From: Burkholderiaceae bacterium
GTDB taxonomy: Bacteria; Pseudomonadota; Gammaproteobacteria; Burkholderiales; Burkholderiaceae_F
Length of the DNA: 64,000 bases
Direction: 5' to 3'
Assembly: GCA_017461315.1 (NCBI GenBank)
Contig: JAFTYR010000047.1
Location: 1 to 64,000 of the forward strand
The notes beneath the pieces are model-generated. The model did not search any database and had not been told where the DNA came from. It was given only the letters and a program-made list of their open reading frames with translations. Shown here one piece after another: positions 19,531 to 53,691 of this stretch. The first letter of the stretch is position 1, and every line of letters starts with the position of its first letter. The position numbers were made by a program, and so were the translations under genes.

Positions 19531-20763
19531 TTATTTTTGTACCTTAGCTTGTAACTCAGGAAATGGCGATAAAGCTCGTGGGAGTATTCCGTGTAATTTA
19601 GCGATGCACACGCCATAATTTACCATCGGAACATTAAAATCAGAGCAGATCTTCTGCCGCCATAACATAGCCTTACGGTTAATCATACAGGCCCCACAAT
19701 GAATGACAAGTTGGTAGTTCGATAGATTCTCTGGGAAGCATTCTCCAGTACTGAAATCAAAATTTAATGGTCCCCCAACATAAGCCTGTAACATCTTAGG
19801 AATTTTTACCTTCCCAATATCATCAACCTGACAAACGTGGGTACAAGCCTCTGCGATCAGAACTCGATCACCAGGCTTTAAACGATCGATTGCCGTTGCC
19901 CCTTCAACTAGAGAAGTAAGATTTCCCTTTTGTCTAGCCATTAAGATAGAAAAAGAGGTTAAGCGAATGTTTTTAGGGGTTTGCTGATTTGCTTTATCAA
20001 AAACTTGACTGTCTGTGACCACCAACGCAGGAGGTTCTTTCAAGTTCTGTATTTGATGTGATAAATCGTTTTCTTTGGTAATTAAACCAATCGCATTATG
20101 ATCCAACGTATCACGTAAGGCGATGACTTGGGGAAGAATGAGACGTCCTTTGGGAGCTGCGGTGTCGATTGGAACACAGTAAACAACCGTATCCCCGGAC
20201 TGAATTAAATCTCCTACAAAAGGAACTGTATTTTGAGCTTTGGGAACCAAAGCGATGAGTTCCTCTCTTAATTGATCAAAACCCTCTCCTGTTTGCGCAC
20301 TTACCGTAATAACCTTTTCTCCTGAAACCTGTTCTAATTTTTCGACAACCTCATTAAGGTGTTGAACGGTATCAATTTTATTAAGTACCAAAATAATTGG
20401 AGTTCCGAGTTCTTTAAAGGTTTGAATTAAAGAAGATTCAAACGTAGAAAACTGATTTTTAGCATCGATAACGATCATCGCAATATCAGTTTTACCCATA
20501 ACCTCTTTCGTTCTTCCAATTCTTAATTCTCCTAAAGCTCCTTCATCATCGATGCCAGCGGTATCGATGATCATCACAGGACCAATAGGTGCAATTTCCA
20601 TTGCCTTATAAACTGGATCGGTCGTAGTACCCGCAATATCACTAACTAATGCAATACTTTGCTTTGTTAAGCAATTAATGACACTTGATTTGCCAGCATT
20701 ACGACGACCAAAAATGCCGATATGTAAACGAATACCTTTGGGAGTTTCTTGCAATCCAGCCAT
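19531..20763 (-). CDS. hydF: [FeFe]-hydrogenase maturation GTPase HydF
   Basis: A 410-residue protein that scaffolds the diiron subcluster before delivery to apo-HydA. The N-terminal Era-like GTPase has G1 GRRNAGKSS (19-27), a Thr-rich switch (DIAGTTTD), DTAG and NKID. The C-terminal part holds the [4Fe-4S] ligand pattern of HydF: a C-T-H (about 308) and an H-C-G-A-C (about 354). AGGA lies six to eight bases before the ATG. It is downstream of the hydA-hydB-cytochrome b operon but separated from it by a terminator, so it may have its own promoter. HydE and HydG are not in the window. Confidence 0.94.
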   Translation of the reverse strand: MAGLQETPKGIRLHIGIFGRRNAGKSSVINCLTKQSIALVSDIAGTTTDPVYKAMEIAPIGPVMIIDTAGIDDEGALGELRIGRTKEVMGKTDIAMIVIDAKNQFSTFESSLIQTFKELGTPIILVLNKIDTVQHLNEVVEKLEQVSGEKVITVSAQTGEGFDQLREELIALVPKAQNTVPFVGDLIQSGDTVVYCVPIDTAAPKGRLILPQVIALRDTLDHNAIGLITKENDLSHQIQNLKEPPALVVTDSQVFDKANQQTPKNIRLTSFSILMARQKGNLTSLVEGATAIDRLKPGDRVLIAEACTHVCQVDDIGKVKIPKMLQAYVGGPLNFDFSTGECFPENLSNYQLVIHCGACMINRKAMLWRQKICSDFNVPMVNYGVCIAKLHGILPRALSPFPELQAKVQK

Positions 20764-20843
20764 TTTTATCCTACAGACAATTCTATAAATTCATATGGTT
20801 TTTAGTATAGATCAGCTGTCGATACAACCCTTTGATCTACATG

Positions 20844-20874
20844 AAAAAAGCACCTGCAGAAGTACCACAGGTGC
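20844..20874 (-). terminator. intrinsic terminator after the hydrogenase operon
   Basis: On the minus strand, arms 20868-20874 and 20850-20856 (GCACCTG and CAGGTGC) pair around an 11-base loop and are followed by six T. It separates the cytochrome b gene from hydF. Confidence 0.85.
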
Positions 20875-20918
20875 CTTTTATGTTTAAGAACTAAATACTG
20901 CCCTTTACTGTACGAAGA

Positions 20919-21626
20919 TTAGTTCTTTTCGTTCAGCTTGATAACATCACGTTCAACCCATGTTGGAGCGTGGTGTAATGCAGCGTCGGCAGAAATGTCA
21001 CCAGAACCAATACGCCAAATTCCTTTGAAGTGTTCCATGGAGAGCAACGCCAGGGGAATATGGGCACAAGTAACCATTGCTGTCACAATGATGGAACCCC
21101 AAACGTGAGTAATGAACATCCAATAGAAGACGGTCTTACCTAAGAGAGGAGCACCAGCCCACAACAACCAACCTGTAACGATGAGGTAGATGATCGCAGC
21201 GATAAAGATGAGGTAACTCATCTTCTGACCGCCGTTATAGCGACCCTGTGGAGGGGTTTCAACAGGACCAAATGGGATCTTGAAGAAACGACGAGGATAT
21301 CCACCAAAGTTACGGAACCAAAGGATGGTATTGCGATCCCATTCCATAAGGTTCTTCATGGTTACAGCGAATCGTTCTGGAGCAAAGAGTACATAACCAA
21401 TGAAGTTCAATGTAAACAAAGCACCAAGCCAAATGTGCCAAACCATCATCAAGTTAGCGGTGTCATCATCGATCTTATGGAACATATGACCGAAATAAAC
21501 GATCGCACCAGTGATGAACAAAGCATACCAACAGATAGCGTTAATGGAATGGAACACCTTATCTGAGGTATGGAAGCGCAAAATGCGTGCGTTAGCAGGA
21601 ATAGAAGAATGGTGGATATTAGACAT
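20919..21626 (-). CDS. haem b membrane subunit of the [FeFe]-hydrogenase (formate dehydrogenase gamma-like)
   Basis: A 235-residue integral protein with four predicted membrane helices (about 29-46, 62-82, 137-157, 170-195). Conserved-looking histidines at 19, 26, 64, 174, 189 and 199 fit the di-haem cytochrome b of the FdhI/Ni-Fe hydrogenase cytochrome family. It begins inside the end of hydB (eight-base overlap) and has a strong GGAGG, so it is co-translated. From context it should anchor the HydAB pair and pass electrons between H2 and the quinone pool. Shewanella hydrogenase loci have a similar FdhC-like gene after hydB. Confidence 0.88.
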   Translation of the reverse strand: MSNIHHSSIPANARILRFHTSDKVFHSINAICWYALFITGAIVYFGHMFHKIDDDTANLMMVWHIWLGALFTLNFIGYVLFAPERFAVTMKNLMEWDRNTILWFRNFGGYPRRFFKIPFGPVETPPQGRYNGGQKMSYLIFIAAIIYLIVTGWLLWAGAPLLGKTVFYWMFITHVWGSIIVTAMVTCAHIPLALLSMEHFKGIWRIGSGDISADAALHHAPTWVERDVIKLNEKN

Positions 21627-21963
21627 GATCTGCCTCCTTCATAGCAAGCTGAGAACGCGCAACATAGTGCGTATGATTCAACTTATACATTTCACCTTCG
21701 ACGGGCTTACCATTCATATCCTTGTAAACACGCCAACAAACATCATTCTCATGAGAAGAAGTTAAGTTCATCTTCTGCAAACGCTTGTCATCTGCATACA
21801 AACCTTGTTGTCTATCGAGAATGATCTGGTTGCGAGACTTAATCAGCTTAACGATTGCTGTACCGGCAGCCACTACAGCAACGGCACAAAGACCGATGAC
21901 TTTAATAAAACCACGACGGCCCAACATTGCAGGGACATCGCGCTCAGCATATTGATATTTCAT
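21619..21963 (-). CDS. hydB: [FeFe]-hydrogenase small subunit with Tat signal
   Basis: A 114-residue protein with a twin-arginine signal: R16-R17-G-F-I-K followed by a hydrophobic stretch to about residue 41. The mature part carries the HydB pattern (S-x2-N-x2-V-x2-V-Y-K, then L-N-H-T-H-Y-V-x-R-S), equivalent to the C-terminal piece of single-chain hydrogenases. HydA has no signal of its own, so HydB should carry the folded dimer across the membrane, as shown for Desulfovibrio enzymes. The gene is 13 bases after hydA and overlaps the cytochrome b start. Confidence 0.9.
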   Translation of the reverse strand: MKYQYAERDVPAMLGRRGFIKVIGLCAVAVVAAGTAIVKLIKSRNQIILDRQQGLYADDKRLQKMNLTSSHENDVCWRVYKDMNGKPVEGEMYKLNHTHYVARSQLAMKEADHV

Positions 21964-21976
21964 AATTCACACCCGA

Positions 21977-23329
21977 TTAAAGTTTAAGGGGGAGCGGTTC
22001 AGAAGAACGTAACCAAGAAGAGCCGGCACCCTGTAATGGCTGACCACCACCGTTTACGCAACCACCTGGACAATTCATAACTTCGATGAAGTGCCAACGG
22101 TTCTTGTCTTCGTTAATAATTCTCATCACCTTATCAAGTTCTTGCAGAGCACCATTAACGATAGCAACGCGTAATTCGAAGATTTCACCATTCTTAGCCT
22201 TCAAAGGAATAGGAATAGTAGCTTCGATCAAAGCCTTATCCAGACCACGAACGCTGATAATGTCTGGGTTCTTCAATTCTTCACCAGACAGGATGAAATA
22301 AGCGGTACGGAGAGCGGCTTCCATTACACCACCGGAACATCCGAAGATTGTGCCAGCACCGGTGTACTTACCCATCGTCTTTGTTTCATAAGTCTTGGGC
22401 ATTGCAAGAGGATTAATACCCTTGCGACGGAAGACTTCAGCGATATCACGAGTTGTTAATGAATAATCGATATCAGGGAATACTGGAGTATCCTTAGGCA
22501 ATTCGCCATTCTTAACATTCCATTTCCAAGCATCGATAAATTCTGGACGGCTTGCTTCGTAGATCTTAGCGGTACATGGAGTAACAGCAACCATGACGAT
22601 ATCGCGTGGATCCTTATTCCAAACGTGCTTAGCAGCCCAGGTCTTTGCTAACGCACCACCCATCTGTACAGGGCTCTTTGTGGTAGAAACGTGTGGAATA
22701 GCAGAAGCATAGTTAATTTCCATGTTACGAACCCAGCCAGGGCAACAGCTCGTAAAGTGAGGCAACGGATGGTGAGCCATCATATTGACTTCATCATTGC
22801 GTTCACCGAGAAGCCAATAACGTACCTTTTTAATAAATTCAGTACCTTCTTCTAAAATAGTCTGGTCAGCGGTCTGGTTAACGTCATAAACTTCAAAACC
22901 AGCCTTTTCTAAAGCATTTAAAAGCTGTTCTGTACAAAGTTCACCAGGCTTAGCACCAAACTCTTCAGTTAAAGCGACACGAACGGCAGGAGATGGATGA
23001 GCCACAACAAATTTCTTTGGATCATCCAGTGCAGCGATCACTTCATCCACGAAACTCATCTGTTCGATTGCTGCGAATGGACATGCAGTCAAACACTGTC
23101 CACAACTAACACAAGCGTCATCGCGAATCGTATGGATGGCACCTAATCCACCATCGATTGCATCAACAGGACAGAACTTACGGCAGGTATCACAGCCTAC
23201 ACAGTTATCCTTGTTGATATGAATAATTCCTCTAAGTTCGCCTTTACGAAAATTGCCTTGATAATCAGGACCGCCTTCGCCACGGCAACCTTTCGGAGGA
23301 CGGAAAGTCACAACATTCATTGCTGTCAT
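21977..23329 (-). CDS. hydA: [FeFe]-hydrogenase large (catalytic) subunit
   Basis: A 450-residue M2-type hydrogenase. Two [4Fe-4S] ferredoxin sites (Cys 43/46/49/53 and 73/76/79/83) precede the H-cluster domain. L1 is T-S-C-C-P-G-W (193-199), including the Cys used for proton transfer; L2 is T-P-C-T-A-K (250-255), where Thr 250 replaces the usual Met; L3 is M-N-C-P-G-G-C (418-424). There is no signal peptide or C-terminal small-subunit extension, since that part is the separate hydB. GGAG lies six bases before the chosen ATG. Expected role: H2 oxidation or production at the periplasmic face with HydB and the cytochrome b. Confidence 0.95.
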   Translation of the reverse strand: MTAMNVVTFRPPKGCRGEGGPDYQGNFRKGELRGIIHINKDNCVGCDTCRKFCPVDAIDGGLGAIHTIRDDACVSCGQCLTACPFAAIEQMSFVDEVIAALDDPKKFVVAHPSPAVRVALTEEFGAKPGELCTEQLLNALEKAGFEVYDVNQTADQTILEEGTEFIKKVRYWLLGERNDEVNMMAHHPLPHFTSCCPGWVRNMEINYASAIPHVSTTKSPVQMGGALAKTWAAKHVWNKDPRDIVMVAVTPCTAKIYEASRPEFIDAWKWNVKNGELPKDTPVFPDIDYSLTTRDIAEVFRRKGINPLAMPKTYETKTMGKYTGAGTIFGCSGGVMEAALRTAYFILSGEELKNPDIISVRGLDKALIEATIPIPLKAKNGEIFELRVAIVNGALQELDKVMRIINEDKNRWHFIEVMNCPGGCVNGGGQPLQGAGSSWLRSSEPLPLKL

Positions 23330-23585: not shown

Positions 23586-24929
23586 TTACATGTCCTCTTC
23601 TTTGAGTGGACGTCTTAATTCAGCTCGAATATTGTCCATTGCCGAATAAAAATCTTTCATCATGACAAGACCAAGTAACTTACCGCGGTCTGTGACAATA
23701 AACTGTTCTGGATCCACTGGATTTTCTTTAATTGCGCCAATCAATTTCAGCGCTAGAATTTCTTTAAAAAGACTTCTATCAACACTAACCCCATGAGTTA
23801 AACGGAAATATTTACGAGAAAGTCTGCCAGCAAAAAGACCTAAAAGTAATCGATATTGCAACACATCAAATTTTTTGAAGGTCTTCTTCCGTTCGACTCC
23901 ATTTCTTCCGGTAGAAATTCGTTCGTTATATCGACGTAGTGAAAAAGTATTGGCGTATAAACTTTCTCCAAGGAAACTGAATGCACCAGAACCAATTCCT
24001 AGATATTCGTCGTTATCAATAACGTATTCATCAAAACCCTCGTTATTTGCCTTACCGAAGGCCCAGGAAGAAAGTTGCGTATAACTATCTGTGAGCGTAT
24101 CCAAAATAATTCGATATTGGTGAGCCATGATTTCGGGAGGAGCGGCGATTTTATCTTTAACACTTCTCTTAGTTTGGCTTGTCACCATAAGTGGATAAGT
24201 CGTAATCTGACGAGGAGATAATTGAAGAACCTTTTCCAAATCTGCTGATAGTACTTCATCAGTTTGACCTCGGAAACCGAAAATCAAATCAACGTTGCAG
24301 ATCGGAAACATCTCTTGTGCCTTCATGATGTTTTCAAAAACCTCTTCTCCTGTTCCAAACTTATCTCGTTCAGTCATACGAAGAATATCGTCATTGAAAC
24401 TTTGCACGCCAATAGACATACGATCTACTAGACCTTTCATCATAGAAATCGATGGATCACCCATGGCTTGAGGATCAGTTTCACAAGAAACCTCTTTCAT
24501 GCTCGGAAATAAAGTACGAGCCAATTCAATTGTCTTAGCCAACTCATCCATCAGAACCGTAGTCGTACCACCACCAATATACATTGACGTAAAGTCGTAC
24601 CCCAAATTTCGAACCATCTGCATTTCTTTACGCAAATTTATAAAGTATTCCCGAGCCTTATGTTCTTTGAAGAGGAAACGATGAAACGTGCAGTAAGAAC
24701 AAAGTGTCTTACAAAATGGTATATGCGCATACAGCATATACTGATGCCCTGGTTGCGGCTTAGGAAATTCATGCAAAATACATGGATCCAATACTAAGTT
24801 TTTATCTAAGTAGTATTGCATCACCTTCTCGGTCAAATTAAGTTGCCATTTGGGAGCAATTGCTTCCGACTTAGCACCCTTGACATTACCTTTGTAGGCA
24901 TTACGAATCGTTTCTGTAGATCGTTCCAT
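23586..24929 (-). CDS. HemN/HemW-like radical SAM protein
   Basis: A 447-residue radical SAM enzyme with the cluster motif C73-x3-C77-x2-C80 inside the coproporphyrinogen oxidase-like segment AHIPFCKTLCSYC. The G-G-G-T-T-T segment and IGVQSFND (SAM and haem-binding region of HemN/HemW) follow, with a C-terminal HemN_C-like winged-helix region. It could be an oxygen-independent coproporphyrinogen dehydrogenase, a HemW-like haem chaperone or a HutW/ChuW-type haem-degrading enzyme; the sequence alone does not decide. It precedes hydA on the same strand but is separated by 256 bases, so a hydrogenase role is not implied. The start codon has a weak ribosome-binding site. Confidence 0.7.
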   Translation of the reverse strand: MERSTETIRNAYKGNVKGAKSEAIAPKWQLNLTEKVMQYYLDKNLVLDPCILHEFPKPQPGHQYMLYAHIPFCKTLCSYCTFHRFLFKEHKAREYFINLRKEMQMVRNLGYDFTSMYIGGGTTTVLMDELAKTIELARTLFPSMKEVSCETDPQAMGDPSISMMKGLVDRMSIGVQSFNDDILRMTERDKFGTGEEVFENIMKAQEMFPICNVDLIFGFRGQTDEVLSADLEKVLQLSPRQITTYPLMVTSQTKRSVKDKIAAPPEIMAHQYRIILDTLTDSYTQLSSWAFGKANNEGFDEYVIDNDEYLGIGSGAFSFLGESLYANTFSLRRYNERISTGRNGVERKKTFKKFDVLQYRLLLGLFAGRLSRKYFRLTHGVSVDRSLFKEILALKLIGAIKENPVDPEQFIVTDRGKLLGLVMMKDFYSAMDNIRAELRRPLKEEDM

Positions 24930-50060: not shown

Positions 50061-50072
50061 ATAATCACCTAA

Positions 50073-50155
50073 CGGGGAGCCTGTGTTACAAGCTGAGAGG
50101 AAGATGTGATCTTCGACCCATAACCTGATTTGGATAATGCCAACGTAGGGACAAA
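50073..50155 (+). promoter_or_regulatory. TPP riboswitch (THI element)
   Basis: The conserved blocks occur in order: CGGGGAGCC, AGCTGAGAGG (the CUGAGA core), GACCCATAACCTGAT, and GGATAATGCCAACGTAGGGA. These form the two helical arms that bind thiamin diphosphate. It is followed by a terminator 28 bases later, so TPP should stop transcription before thiS. Confidence 0.95.
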
Positions 50156-50182
50156 AGTGGTTGTATTGAGTTCTGAACTAAG

Positions 50183-50220
50183 CGACAGAAATTACCAAAT
50201 TGGTGTTCTGTCGTTTTTTT
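50183..50220 (+). terminator. riboswitch-controlled terminator upstream of thiS
   Basis: Perfect eight-base arms (50183-50190, 50206-50213) with an inner ACC/GGT pairing, then seven T. TTCTG at 50171-50175 could pair with CAGAA at 50186-50190, giving an alternative antiterminator stem. Confidence 0.85.
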
Positions 50221-50240
50221 ATTTTGGGGAGAACTTTAAC

Positions 50241-50435
50241 GTGGTTATAGTGAATGGTGTCGGCTTAGATATCGCTGGTAAGACTCTACAGGAATACCTA
50301 GAATCTGCTGGTTACAATTTCAAACAAATTGCAGTAGAAAGAAATGGATCGGTCGTTTTTAAATCCTTATATGCCACGACTATTCTATGTGATAACGATA
50401 CTATCGAAATTGTCTGTTTCGTTGGCGGAGGTTAA
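50241..50435 (+). CDS. thiS: sulfur carrier protein ThiS
   Basis: A 64-residue beta-grasp protein that carries sulfur as a C-terminal thiocarboxylate for thiazole synthesis. It ends in F-V-G-G-G, the di-glycine tail needed for adenylation, and has the V-N-G and A-V-E-R-N-G landmarks. The frame is open upstream to an ATG inside the riboswitch at 50130, which is not a real start: GTG 50241 has GGGGAGA eight to nine bases ahead and gives the right size. First gene of the thi operon. Confidence 0.92.
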   Translation: MVIVNGVGLDIAGKTLQEYLESAGYNFKQIAVERNGSVVFKSLYATTILCDNDTIEIVCFVGGG

Positions 50436-50440
50436 ATACT

Positions 50441-51070
50441 ATGACTCCGTCCGTAAAGGATATCCAACTTGCACTCGAAAAGCATCACGGAATTGAATTT
50501 CAGAGAAAAATTTCTTCTGCGACAGTTGCTATTTGTGGTCTAGGCGGTTTGGGCTCCAATATTGCTATGTTATTGGCTCGAGCCGGAATTGGGAAAATCA
50601 TTCTAATCGACTTCGATAAAGTAGATGTTTCCAATTTAAATCGACAACAATACAAAGTTAATCAAGTTGGTCAATATAAGGCTGAAGCTTTAGCAAAAAA
50701 CATTAAAGAAATCATGCCTTGTATTCAACTAGAAATTCATGTTGAAAAACTATCTGACTTGAACATTATTCAATTATTACACCAGGCAGATATCGTCTGT
50801 GAGGCATTGGATCAAGCTCAAACCAAAGCTTGGCTCGTTAATACTGTTTTAGAAAAAATGCCCAACAAGTACATTGTCGCGGCGTCAGGGATGGCTGGTT
50901 TTAATAACCCCAATACAATTCAAACAAAAGTTATTACCGATCATTTTTACCTTTGTGGAGACCGTAGCAGTGACTTGAGTCTAGGTTTGATTTCGTCACG
51001 CGTCATGATTTGCGCAGCTCATCAGGCTCACGCTGTTCTTCACATTCTCCAAACTCAAGATCATTTATAA
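50441..51070 (+). CDS. thiF: ThiS adenylyltransferase ThiF, short (family 2) type
   Basis: A 209-residue E1-like enzyme that adenylates ThiS. The nucleotide-binding motif is C-G-L-G-G-L-G-S-N (about 32-40), followed by [14 protein letters not shown]. It lacks the C-terminal zinc-cysteine region of E. coli ThiF; this short form accompanies ThiH and ThiG mainly in Clostridia and other anaerobes. It begins five bases after thiS, and thiG follows four bases after its stop. Confidence 0.92.
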
Positions 51071-51074
51071 AGCT

Positions 51075-51845
51075 ATGGATACAGATCATTTAATTATTGG
51101 TGGACACCAATTTACTTCTCGTTTTATTTTAGGATCAGGTAAGTATTCTTTGGATTTAATCACCGCAGCGATAAAAAACGCTCAGGCTGAAATTATTACG
51201 TTAGCAGTTCGTCGCACCAATACGAAAAATCAAGAAAACATCTTAAATTACATCCCGGATCACATCACTTTATTACCTAATACGTCAGGAGCCCGAGATG
51301 CTCACGAAGCAATCCGTATTGCTCGCCTTGCAAGAGAGCTTGGTTGCGGTAATTTCGTAAAAATTGAAATCATGAGAGATTCAAAATACCTATTACCTGA
51401 TAACCATGAAACGATTAAAGCGACGGAAGTCCTTGCAAATGAAGGATTTATCGTCATGCCCTATATGTATCCAGATCTCAATGTTGCCCGAGATCTTGTT
51501 AATGCAGGAGCATCGAGTATCATGCCTCTTGCCTCCCCTATCGGATCCAATAGGGGATTAAGTACTCGAGATTTTATTCAAATCTTAGTCGACGAAATTG
51601 ATCTGCCTATTATCGTAGATGCGGGAATTGGAAAACCATCGCAAGCTTGTGAAGCAATGGAAATGGGAGTCGACGCAATCATGGCTAATACAGCAATTGC
51701 TACTGCAGGTGATTTACCTTTAATGGCATCGGCTTTCCGACAAGCAATTGAAGCAGGACGAAAAGCTTACCTTTCTGGTCTTGGGAGAGTTCTGAAACGT
51801 GGAGCCTCTGCCTCAGATCCATTAACTGGTTTTTTACATGATTAA
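51075..51845 (+). CDS. thiG: thiazole synthase ThiG
   Basis: A 256-residue TIM-barrel enzyme that builds the thiazole phosphate ring from deoxyxylulose phosphate, dehydroglycine and ThiS-thiocarboxylate. The substrate lysine is in F-V-K-I-E-I (near 96). The motifs [17 protein letters not shown] and V-D-A-G-I-G-K-P-S are intact. It lies between thiF and thiH in a tightly packed operon under the TPP riboswitch. Confidence 0.97.
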
Positions 51846-51869
51846 AAATTCATTTCAAGAATTTCTCAT

Positions 51870-53105
51870 ATGAAAAAGACAAATTCTTCTTTAGAGAATC
51901 TTTCTAAGAAACATAGACTCGAAATGGACCCTACTTGTCGAAAGGATCCCATGCAGTATATGTCAGGGATGGAACAAATACAGTCTAATATTTGTAGTAA
52001 GGTTTTAGCTCAAATGGATAGCTATAACCCTCTTATCTATTCCGCACAAGATGTTCAGAATGCGTTAAATCACGAAACTTGTACTATCGAAGATCTCAAA
52101 GCATTACTGTCTCCTGTAGCTGGATCTTTCTTAGAACAAATGGCACAAAAAGCCAAAGAAAAAACCAGTCAATATTTCGGCAATAACGTCTATTTATTTA
52201 CGCCTCTTTATATTGCGAACCACTGTGAGAATTACTGTACTTATTGCGGTTTCAATTGCTACAACCCGATTAATCGCATCAAGCTCACTACGGAACAAAT
52301 AAAGCATGAAATGGAGATCATTTCAAATAGTGGTATCGAAGAGGTCTTGATCCTTACCGGAGAAAACCGGGCAAGAAGTAATGTTGAGTACATTGGGAAC
52401 GCTTGTAAATTAGCTAAAAATTATTTTCGATCTGTTGGATTAGAAATTTATCCCGTCAACACTGAAGAGTATCGCTATCTCCACGAATGCGGTGCTGACT
52501 ACGTTACTGTCTTCCAAGAGACCTATGACATTCATTCTTACGAAAAATATCATCTTTTCGGTCATAAACGTGTCTGGCCTTATCGGTTTGATGCGCAAGA
52601 AAGAGCATTAATGGCTGGGATGCGAGGTGTCGCATTCTCCGCACTGTTTGGTTTATCTGATTTTCGAAAAGACGCTCTTGCAACTGCCCTGCATGCTTAC
52701 TTCATTCAAAAAAAATATCCCCATGCAGAAATATCACTCTCATGTCCTCGACTAAGACCGATCATCAACAATAGTCAGATTGGCTCTTCGAACATCGGAG
52801 AAAAAGAACTGTGTCAAATAATTTGTGCTTATCGAATTTTTCTTCCCTTTGCTGGCATTACTGTCTCATCTCGAGAAAGTGAACGTTTTCGAAATGGTAT
52901 TGTAAAAATCGGAGCCACCAAAGTTTCCGCAGGAGTATCAACCGGAATTGGAGATCATGAACAAAAATATACAGGAAAAACTTCTAGTACTAAACAGGGT
53001 GATGAACAGTTCACAATTAACGATGATCGTAGCTTAGACAAAATGCAAAAAGATTTAGTTCAAAATGGACTGCAACCTGTTTTAAATGATTACCTTTATG
53101 TCTAG
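51870..53105 (+). CDS. thiH: 2-iminoacetate synthase ThiH (radical SAM)
   Basis: A 411-residue radical SAM tyrosine lyase that supplies dehydroglycine without oxygen. The cluster motif is C119-x3-C123-x2-C126 in N-H-C-E-N-Y-C-T-Y-C-G. The N-terminal extension (about 1-45) resembles the longer ThiH of anaerobes. HydG is a close relative, but HydG proteins have an extra C-terminal cysteine cluster, and none is seen here, so this is ThiH. Its use in place of the flavin oxidase ThiO fits an anaerobic lifestyle. The end overlaps the thiE start. Confidence 0.94.
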   Translation: MKKTNSSLENLSKKHRLEMDPTCRKDPMQYMSGMEQIQSNICSKVLAQMDSYNPLIYSAQDVQNALNHETCTIEDLKALLSPVAGSFLEQMAQKAKEKTSQYFGNNVYLFTPLYIANHCENYCTYCGFNCYNPINRIKLTTEQIKHEMEIISNSGIEEVLILTGENRARSNVEYIGNACKLAKNYFRSVGLEIYPVNTEEYRYLHECGADYVTVFQETYDIHSYEKYHLFGHKRVWPYRFDAQERALMAGMRGVAFSALFGLSDFRKDALATALHAYFIQKKYPHAEISLSCPRLRPIINNSQIGSSNIGEKELCQIICAYRIFLPFAGITVSSRESERFRNGIVKIGATKVSAGVSTGIGDHEQKYTGKTSSTKQGDEQFTINDDRSLDKMQKDLVQNGLQPVLNDYLYV

Positions 53106-53691
53106 TCTCATTTGTATTACCAACCGTCATCTCTGCAAAGAAAACTTTCTTGAGCGCATTAGAAAAGTATCAAATGCTCAGCCAACAGCCATCCTCTTGA
53201 GAGAAAAAGACTTATCCGAAGGCGAATACATGGCACTAGCAAAACAAGTTATTCAGATCTGCCAAAAAGATAAGACTCTTTGTATTCTCCATACTTTTGC
53301 ACAAGTAGCTAAAGAGCTTGGTGTTTCAGCATTTCATTGTCCTCTTCATGTTTTAAGAGAATTATCTCCTGAACTTAAAAGCAACTTCTCGACTCTTGGT
53401 GCTTCCTGTCACAGTCTAGAAGAAGCACTTGAAGCTCAGTCATTAGGGTGTTCATACATTATCATCGGGCATATCTTTAACACGGACTGTAAACAAGGAT
53501 TATCCGGTAGAGGAATTGATTTTTTACGTACGATTTGTCAAAACATTTCGATACCAATCTACGCTATCGGGGGAATTAATAATCAAAACTATTCTCTAAT
53601 AAAGCAAAGTGGGGCAACGGGAGCATGTACTATGAGCGGTTTAATGCAGTGCCAAGATGTTTATAATTACCTGAGTCTTTACCCTGATTAG
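53098..53691 (+). CDS. ThiE/TenI-like thiamine phosphate synthase family protein
   Basis: A 197-residue TIM-barrel protein of the ThiE/TenI superfamily: L-L-R-E-K-D-L-S (phosphate-binding region, about 35-42), G-A-S-C-H-S and A-I-G-G-I-N are recognisable. The H-x-G-Q-x-D segment of classical ThiE reads H-C-P-L-H-V here, which is closer to TenI-type proteins. It could join the pyrimidine and thiazole halves of thiamine, or act as a thiazole tautomerase. ATG 53098 overlaps the thiH stop by eight bases; ATG 53086 is also in frame. Last gene of the operon. Confidence 0.8.
   Translation: MSSLICITNRHLCKENFLERIRKVSNAQPTAILLREKDLSEGEYMALAKQVIQICQKDKTLCILHTFAQVAKELGVSAFHCPLHVLRELSPELKSNFSTLGASCHSLEEALEAQSLGCSYIIIGHIFNTDCKQGLSGRGIDFLRTICQNISIPIYAIGGINNQNYSLIKQSGATGACTMSGLMQCQDVYNYLSLYPD

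Follow-up and report, generated by a model that had tools for sequence, protein, structure and literature searches.

Our analysis of a 64,000-nucleotide stretch of DNA (contig JAFTYR010000047.1 of assembly GCA_017461315.1, hereafter the window) points to a membrane-anchored periplasmic [FeFe]-hydrogenase, encoded by hydA, hydB and a cytochrome b gene that stand together with the maturase gene hydF at positions 19531 to 23329. The complex would act as an H2:quinone oxidoreductase, likely in the direction of H2 uptake, and we put the probability of this reading at roughly 0.78. The host is a Turicimonas-like Sutterellaceae metagenome-assembled genome (MAG; bin of 1.55 Mb, 85% complete). Gene content and order, the cofactor ligands, the twin-arginine translocation (Tat) motif and the presence of all maturases and of TatC are directly established. 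An initial annotation of the window had proposed a membrane-bound, Tat-exported and quinone-linked enzyme, and judged by domains, motifs and predicted fold this remains the best reading of its anatomy.

The hydrogenase locus and its subunits

All four genes named by that annotation are present on the minus strand, and since family models support every one of them the locus is not a chance observation. The hydA gene (21977..23329, 450 aa) encodes two [4Fe-4S] ferredoxin motifs and the H-cluster domain (PF02906, 219 bits against a cut-off of 22.1). After a gap of 13 nt follows hydB (21619..21963, 114 aa), a separate gene for the small subunit (PF02256, 39.5 bits against 24; match to the Desulfovibrio small subunit 1hfe_S, E 1.2e-5), which overlaps the gene for the cytochrome b membrane subunit (20919..21626, 235 aa; PF01292, 55 bits against 30.1) by 8 nt, a spacing in keeping with the earlier description of genes that overlap or nearly abut. 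The gene for the H-cluster maturation GTPase HydF (19531..20763, 410 aa; TIGR03918, 558.8 bits against 325.55; Pfam GTPase, dimerisation and tetramerisation domains) does follow the trio, starting 155 nt beyond the cytochrome b gene on the same strand. Between the two lies the expected intrinsic terminator, a hairpin with a U-tract (20836..20884, minus strand) and a folding energy of -22.9 kcal/mol (shuffle z -5.7; no shuffled sequence folded equally well). A pattern-based terminator scan did not flag this hairpin, the loop of which is longer than the scan pattern permits. One-mismatch matches to the FNR box occurred in the window at chance level, with none upstream of hydA, and a pattern scan for sigma-70 promoters gave matches at or below chance.

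The best solved match of HydA is the periplasmic HydA of Desulfovibrio (E 9e-85; 46% identity in the alignment). The H-cluster cysteines and the proton-path residues are retained in the alignment, and we take the latter, from established knowledge and the alignment together, to match the proton path of CpI. The L1 motif TSCCP (residues 193-197; 22739..22753, minus strand like all motifs given here) is invariant in that alignment, and L3 reads EVMNCPGGC (residues 416-424; 22058..22084). In L2 (MPCxxK) the cluster-ligand Cys and the Lys are retained and the Met is replaced by Thr (TPC, residues 250-252; 22574..22582). Of the 42 Sutterellaceae loci that could be read, 33 have Thr at this position and 4 have Ala, and Thr also occupies it in 9/10 loci of Campylobacterota; in the remaining loci it is Met (50), Tyr (6) or unread (6), never Thr or Ala. 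A Thr or Ala at L2 appears to be a signature of the Sutterellaceae HydA clade, and since this Met lies close to the H-cluster in CpI, the replacement may tune the active site. Pairwise ratios of nonsynonymous to synonymous substitution rates (dN/dS) for HydA range from 0.02 to 0.28 and indicate purifying selection.

HydA itself is without a hydrophobic signal stretch. The R-R-x-F-x-K signal ascribed to HydB is present as RRGFIK (residues 16-21; 21901..21918), its twin arginine (residues 16-17) being invariant in 25/25 aligned sequences and followed by a hydrophobic stretch at residues 17-35; some Sutterellaceae HydB carry RRGL instead of RRGF. HydB is a predicted Tat substrate. The membrane subunit, previously described as a four-helix haem b protein, has four hydrophobic stretches, the putative transmembrane helices, and exactly four histidines (H26, H64, H174 and H189) that are invariant in 52/52 aligned sequences, from which it probably binds two haem b. 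Its fold was predicted with good confidence (AlphaFold, pLDDT 89), and the best fold match of the model is 1kqf_C (Z 18.7 over 205 residues; next match Z 14.3). With 62.2 bits it falls below the curated cut-off of the formate dehydrogenase gamma family (TIGR01583, 115.85), so it is regarded as a relative and not as a member of that family.

Proposed electron path and direction

In the proposed mechanism HydA and HydB would fold and gain their cofactors in the cytoplasm by means of HydE, HydF and HydG. The Tat system, whose TatC is encoded on another contig (C66) of the same bin, would then export the pair through the twin-arginine signal of HydB, with HydA carried along without a signal of its own, and the dihaem cytochrome b, together with the signal helix of HydB, would tether the pair to the periplasmic side of the inner membrane. 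There H2 would be split at the H-cluster, and electrons would pass over the two [4Fe-4S] clusters of HydA and the two haems b to quinone. The physiological direction, which we infer from redox potentials, is likely uptake, so that H2 would support anaerobic respiration in the gut. The closest physiological precedent comes from Sporomusa ovata, where HydB2 carries a Tat sequence and HydC2 is dihaem-like: the only membrane band that oxidised H2 contained the homologous HydA2B2, and H2 served the membranes as reductant for anthraquinone-2,6-disulfonate, an analogue of quinone (PMC9430772).

Several points weigh against a periplasmic uptake enzyme. The active band of S. ovata also held a [NiFe] enzyme, so the activity was not assigned (PMC9430772), and in the strain of Sulfurospirillum cavolei that was studied a stop codon interrupts hydA and its product was not detected (PMC6242987). 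The window HydA scores 363.1 bits, below the cut-off of TIGR02512 (FeFe_hydrog_A, group A; 405.95), which the other two HydA of the same genome pass. The AlphaFold model of HydB is poor (pLDDT 62) and too weak for use. Finally, direction is not readable from sequence.

It is conceivable, if unlikely, that the same complex runs in reverse and releases excess electrons as periplasmic H2 during fermentation; by established redox potentials, however, quinol is far too oxidising to yield H2 without energy input, and the two other [FeFe] enzymes of the genome, neither with an adjacent cytochrome b, suit fermentation better. What speaks for the reverse reaction is that [FeFe]-hydrogenases often run towards H2 (PMC4794192) and that HydDB, which assigns the subtype by the downstream gene and names neither HydB nor cytochrome b in its rules, exemplifies A1 as fermentative H2 evolution (PMC5037454). 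As no GltD, NuoF or HycB domain lies downstream of the window hydA, its rule gives A1, and rule-based surveys would label the enzyme accordingly.

The genome encodes four hydrogenases in a bin of 1.55 Mb. A second HydA on contig C17 (L010:6221-8260, minus strand; 679 aa) is fused to a rubredoxin/rubrerythrin tail and also has TPC in L2; the fusion may link H2 to the removal of peroxide or oxygen. Plasmid matches annotated as 'rubrerythrin' in Paraclostridium and Cetobacterium suggest that the same HydA fusion occurs elsewhere. The third HydA, on contig C77 (L011:9438-13246, minus strand), has a NuoG-like N-terminus, lies beside a NuoF-C/GltD-like fusion protein and appears A2-like in the sense of HydDB. 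The fourth enzyme is represented by a [NiFe]-hydrogenase large subunit on contig C11 (1902-3494, minus strand).

Maturation with HydG and possibly without it

The window holds hydF as the only maturase gene of the locus, and the initial annotation had left hydE and hydG to be looked for in the rest of the genome. Profile searches detected both in the same bin, hydE on contig C12 (293.8 bits against a curated cut-off of 254.6) and hydG on contig C4 (820 bits against 312), so that HydE, HydF and HydG all exceed their curated cut-offs. Bin contamination was rejected as a likely origin of hydG and of the additional hydA genes, since contigs C4, C12, C17 and C77 match the window in GC content (39-42%) and tetranucleotide profile and the neighbours of hydE on C12 (judged by eye, secG-like, tpiA-like and pnp-like genes are nearby) are the same as in Turicimonas muris and in two further genomes (G013 and G032); some possibility of contamination is left for C4. 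A plasmid origin was rejected as well, the best plasmid match showing only 38% identity.

HydG is normally thought necessary to build the active site of [FeFe]-hydrogenases. It is present in the window genome and in 22/25 HydA-bearing genomes of genera g9, g11 and g16, and our HydG search found it in 0/10 HydA-bearing genomes of genera g2, g6 and g14, a count in which genomes within one genus are not independent. In a profile search of 16 genomes, positive controls included, scores were at HydE level only (30-49 bits) in these ten (G001, G005, G013, G018, G020, G025/G719, G030, G032, G039 and G044) and in strain T. muris YL45 (G719, which matches G025); ThiH-level matches are missing from the ten as well. 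Nearly all of them are 98-100% complete (one is 94%) and two are assembled in 2-3 contigs. HydE was found in all ten and HydF wherever the locus was retrieved; six carry the window-type HydA, which purifying selection maintains in them, and the other four only another HydA type. The window HydG is nested, as a long branch, among the HydG of Sutterellaceae; vertical descent predicts such a placement, and loss of HydG in the relatives is therefore likelier than gain in the window lineage. Outside the hydrogenase locus, the window holds at 50063-53691 (plus strand) a thiamine pyrophosphate riboswitch and, behind it, a thiamine cluster, one member of which is a ThiH-like tyrosine lyase matching the HydG profile.

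In view of the retention of HydA, HydB, cytochrome b, HydE and HydF and of the selection acting on HydA, we tentatively propose that Turicimonas and two related genera mature the window-type hydrogenase without HydG and obtain the CO and CN- ligands from another source, although we rate this at well under even odds. Several Clostridium acetogens reportedly have no HydG that can be recognised, and in vitro the activation reached with HydE and HydF by themselves was about 1% (PMC9431212, the sole relevant match of our literature search for HydG-less cases). The absence of HydG in 10/10 genomes of the three genera could also mean that the enzyme is a relic which yields only the apo-enzyme, at least in lineages that lost hydG. 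This is quite improbable: HydG is present in the window genome, none of the cysteine motifs is disrupted, and dN/dS of HydA is 0.03-0.06 in three of four HydG-less pairs (0.21 in the fourth, more distant pair), as low as in HydG-bearing pairs (0.02-0.28).

The gene upstream of hydA (23586..24929, minus strand) encodes a radical S-adenosylmethionine (SAM) HemN-like protein of the PRK08629 family (NF006385, 629 bits) and is kept at this place in nearly all Sutterellaceae with the locus, clade g2 excepted. As a substitute for HydG it was rejected, being of the HemN family, present beside hydA in HydG-bearing genomes too and not beside hydA in the HydG-less clade g2. We treat it as a conserved neighbour and not as an established part of the hydrogenase system.

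The histories of the maturases differ from that of the trio, giving the system a mosaic composition. In the HydG tree the Sutterellaceae are sister to Selenomonas, far from the HydG of Campylobacterota. The HydF proteins of the window, Turicimonas and G032 join Syntrophomonadaceae and Desulfosporosinus (99/98) and not the other Sutterellaceae; a single Sutterellaceae HydF clade is disfavoured by the approximately unbiased (AU) test (p 0.02), a test picked after the tree had been seen. The divergent HydF occupies the same position in the locus as the HydF of other Sutterellaceae (compared in L063, L067, L069, L074 and L200). Given the different ancestry and the unchanged position, replacement of HydF in situ in the Turicimonas/window lineage is apparently the simplest scenario.

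Descent of the locus and comparison with known systems

The statement that [FeFe]-hydrogenases are unusual in Burkholderiales is borne out by our samples. At the HydA search threshold used, any HydA was found in 11/300 genomes drawn from the order and the window type only in its own family, where about half of the sampled genomes carry it; a class-wide sample (369 genomes) returned it only from the window's own genome. Turicimonas is the nearest named source of HydA (T. muris, 85% identity). Outside the family the nearest HydA come from Campylobacterota, among them Campylobacter majalis and Sulfurospirillum (mostly 62-65%, one 58%), followed by Archaeoglobaceae, Selenomonas, Sporomusa and Shewanella (46-50%). 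In the HydA tree the window protein is placed within a single Sutterellaceae clade (100/99) that joins five Campylobacterota at 100/100, and the cytochrome b tree agrees. The trio recurs in Campylobacterota, Shewanella/Ferrimonas, Sporomusa/Selenomonas, Smithella and Syntrophomonas, and the congruence of both trees argues that it travels as a unit. The suggested horizontal acquisition gains support from this sister relation across phyla. Most likely the trio was transferred between phyla as a unit, once, before the gut genera of the family split, with the donor on either side. The suggested likeness to the Shewanella hydA-hydB-fdhC locus holds for gene order and not for descent, since the sister group is Campylobacterota; forcing a clade of Sutterellaceae and Shewanella HydA costs 175 log units and is rejected (AU p 7e-82). 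That HydA is a sensory or non-catalytic homologue, as the Thr/Ala at the normally conserved L2 Met might suggest, is scarcely credible, as none of the H-cluster cysteines or proton-path residues is lost, a Pfam search found only ferredoxin-type and H-cluster domains and no sensory domain such as PAS, the gene adjoins hydB, the cytochrome b gene and hydF, and the tree groups the protein with catalytic periplasmic HydAB and not with sensory or non-catalytic forms, the grouping that would have spoken against the initial annotation.

Three Archaeoglobaceae MAG loci (L076, L077 and L094) hold a HydA and a cytochrome b of the window clade, with hydE, hydF and hydG surrounding HydA in L077. Our search did not find HydB in these three loci, where the small subunit may have diverged or something else may serve as anchor.

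The enzyme type as such is already known from Shewanella, Sulfurospirillum/Campylobacter and Sporomusa. The cluster of hydA, hydB and a membrane subunit was described in S. cavolei and Campylobacter, with Shewanella noted, in a 2016 paper that also names Sutterella and Parasutterella HydA among those closest to the S. cavolei HydA (PMC4794192), and Parasutterella has been listed as an inferred hydrogenotroph (PMC12911397). In the literature searched we found no earlier description of the mosaic maturases, the L2 signature or the HydG-less relatives. Gut Sutterellaceae would be probable respiratory H2 users, which bears on models of H2 flow in the gut. The sister relation with Campylobacterota would be a clear case of a whole electron-transfer unit transferred with maturases from elsewhere, and the HydG-less genomes, including that of strain T. 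muris YL45, offer a way to ask whether HydG is needed in the living cell.

The cluster of S. cavolei and Campylobacter (PMC4794192) shares with the window the order of hydA, hydB and membrane subunit. Campylobacterota, the sister group in HydA, have a cytochrome b 44-53% identical to that of the window and hydG, hydE and hydF downstream (in S. cavolei with aspA between), whereas the window has hydF only and its hydG is of a different lineage. Shewanella (hydA-hydB-fdhC-hydG-hydX-hydE-hydF) has the same trio in the same order, a twin-arginine HydB and a four-histidine cytochrome b, with identities to the window of 46-48% for HydA and 23-27% for cytochrome b. The same trio is found in S. ovata HydA2B2C2, a predicted H2-oxidising periplasmic enzyme with a dihaem cytochrome b (PMC9430772). 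Its HydA belongs to another clade (47% identity to the window; cytochrome b 29%). The HydAB of Desulfovibrio desulfuricans/vulgaris (1hfe, 8rtg) is likewise periplasmic and built of two subunits, the smaller of which bears the signal peptide (HydA about 46%), but in contrast to the window no cytochrome b match adjoins HydAB in the Desulfovibrio loci examined; there, electrons go to the soluble cytochrome c3. The cytochrome b556 of Escherichia coli formate dehydrogenase-N (1kqf_C) shares the predicted fold and the four haem-ligand histidines with the window cytochrome b, the partner of which, unlike that of 1kqf_C, would be a hydrogenase.

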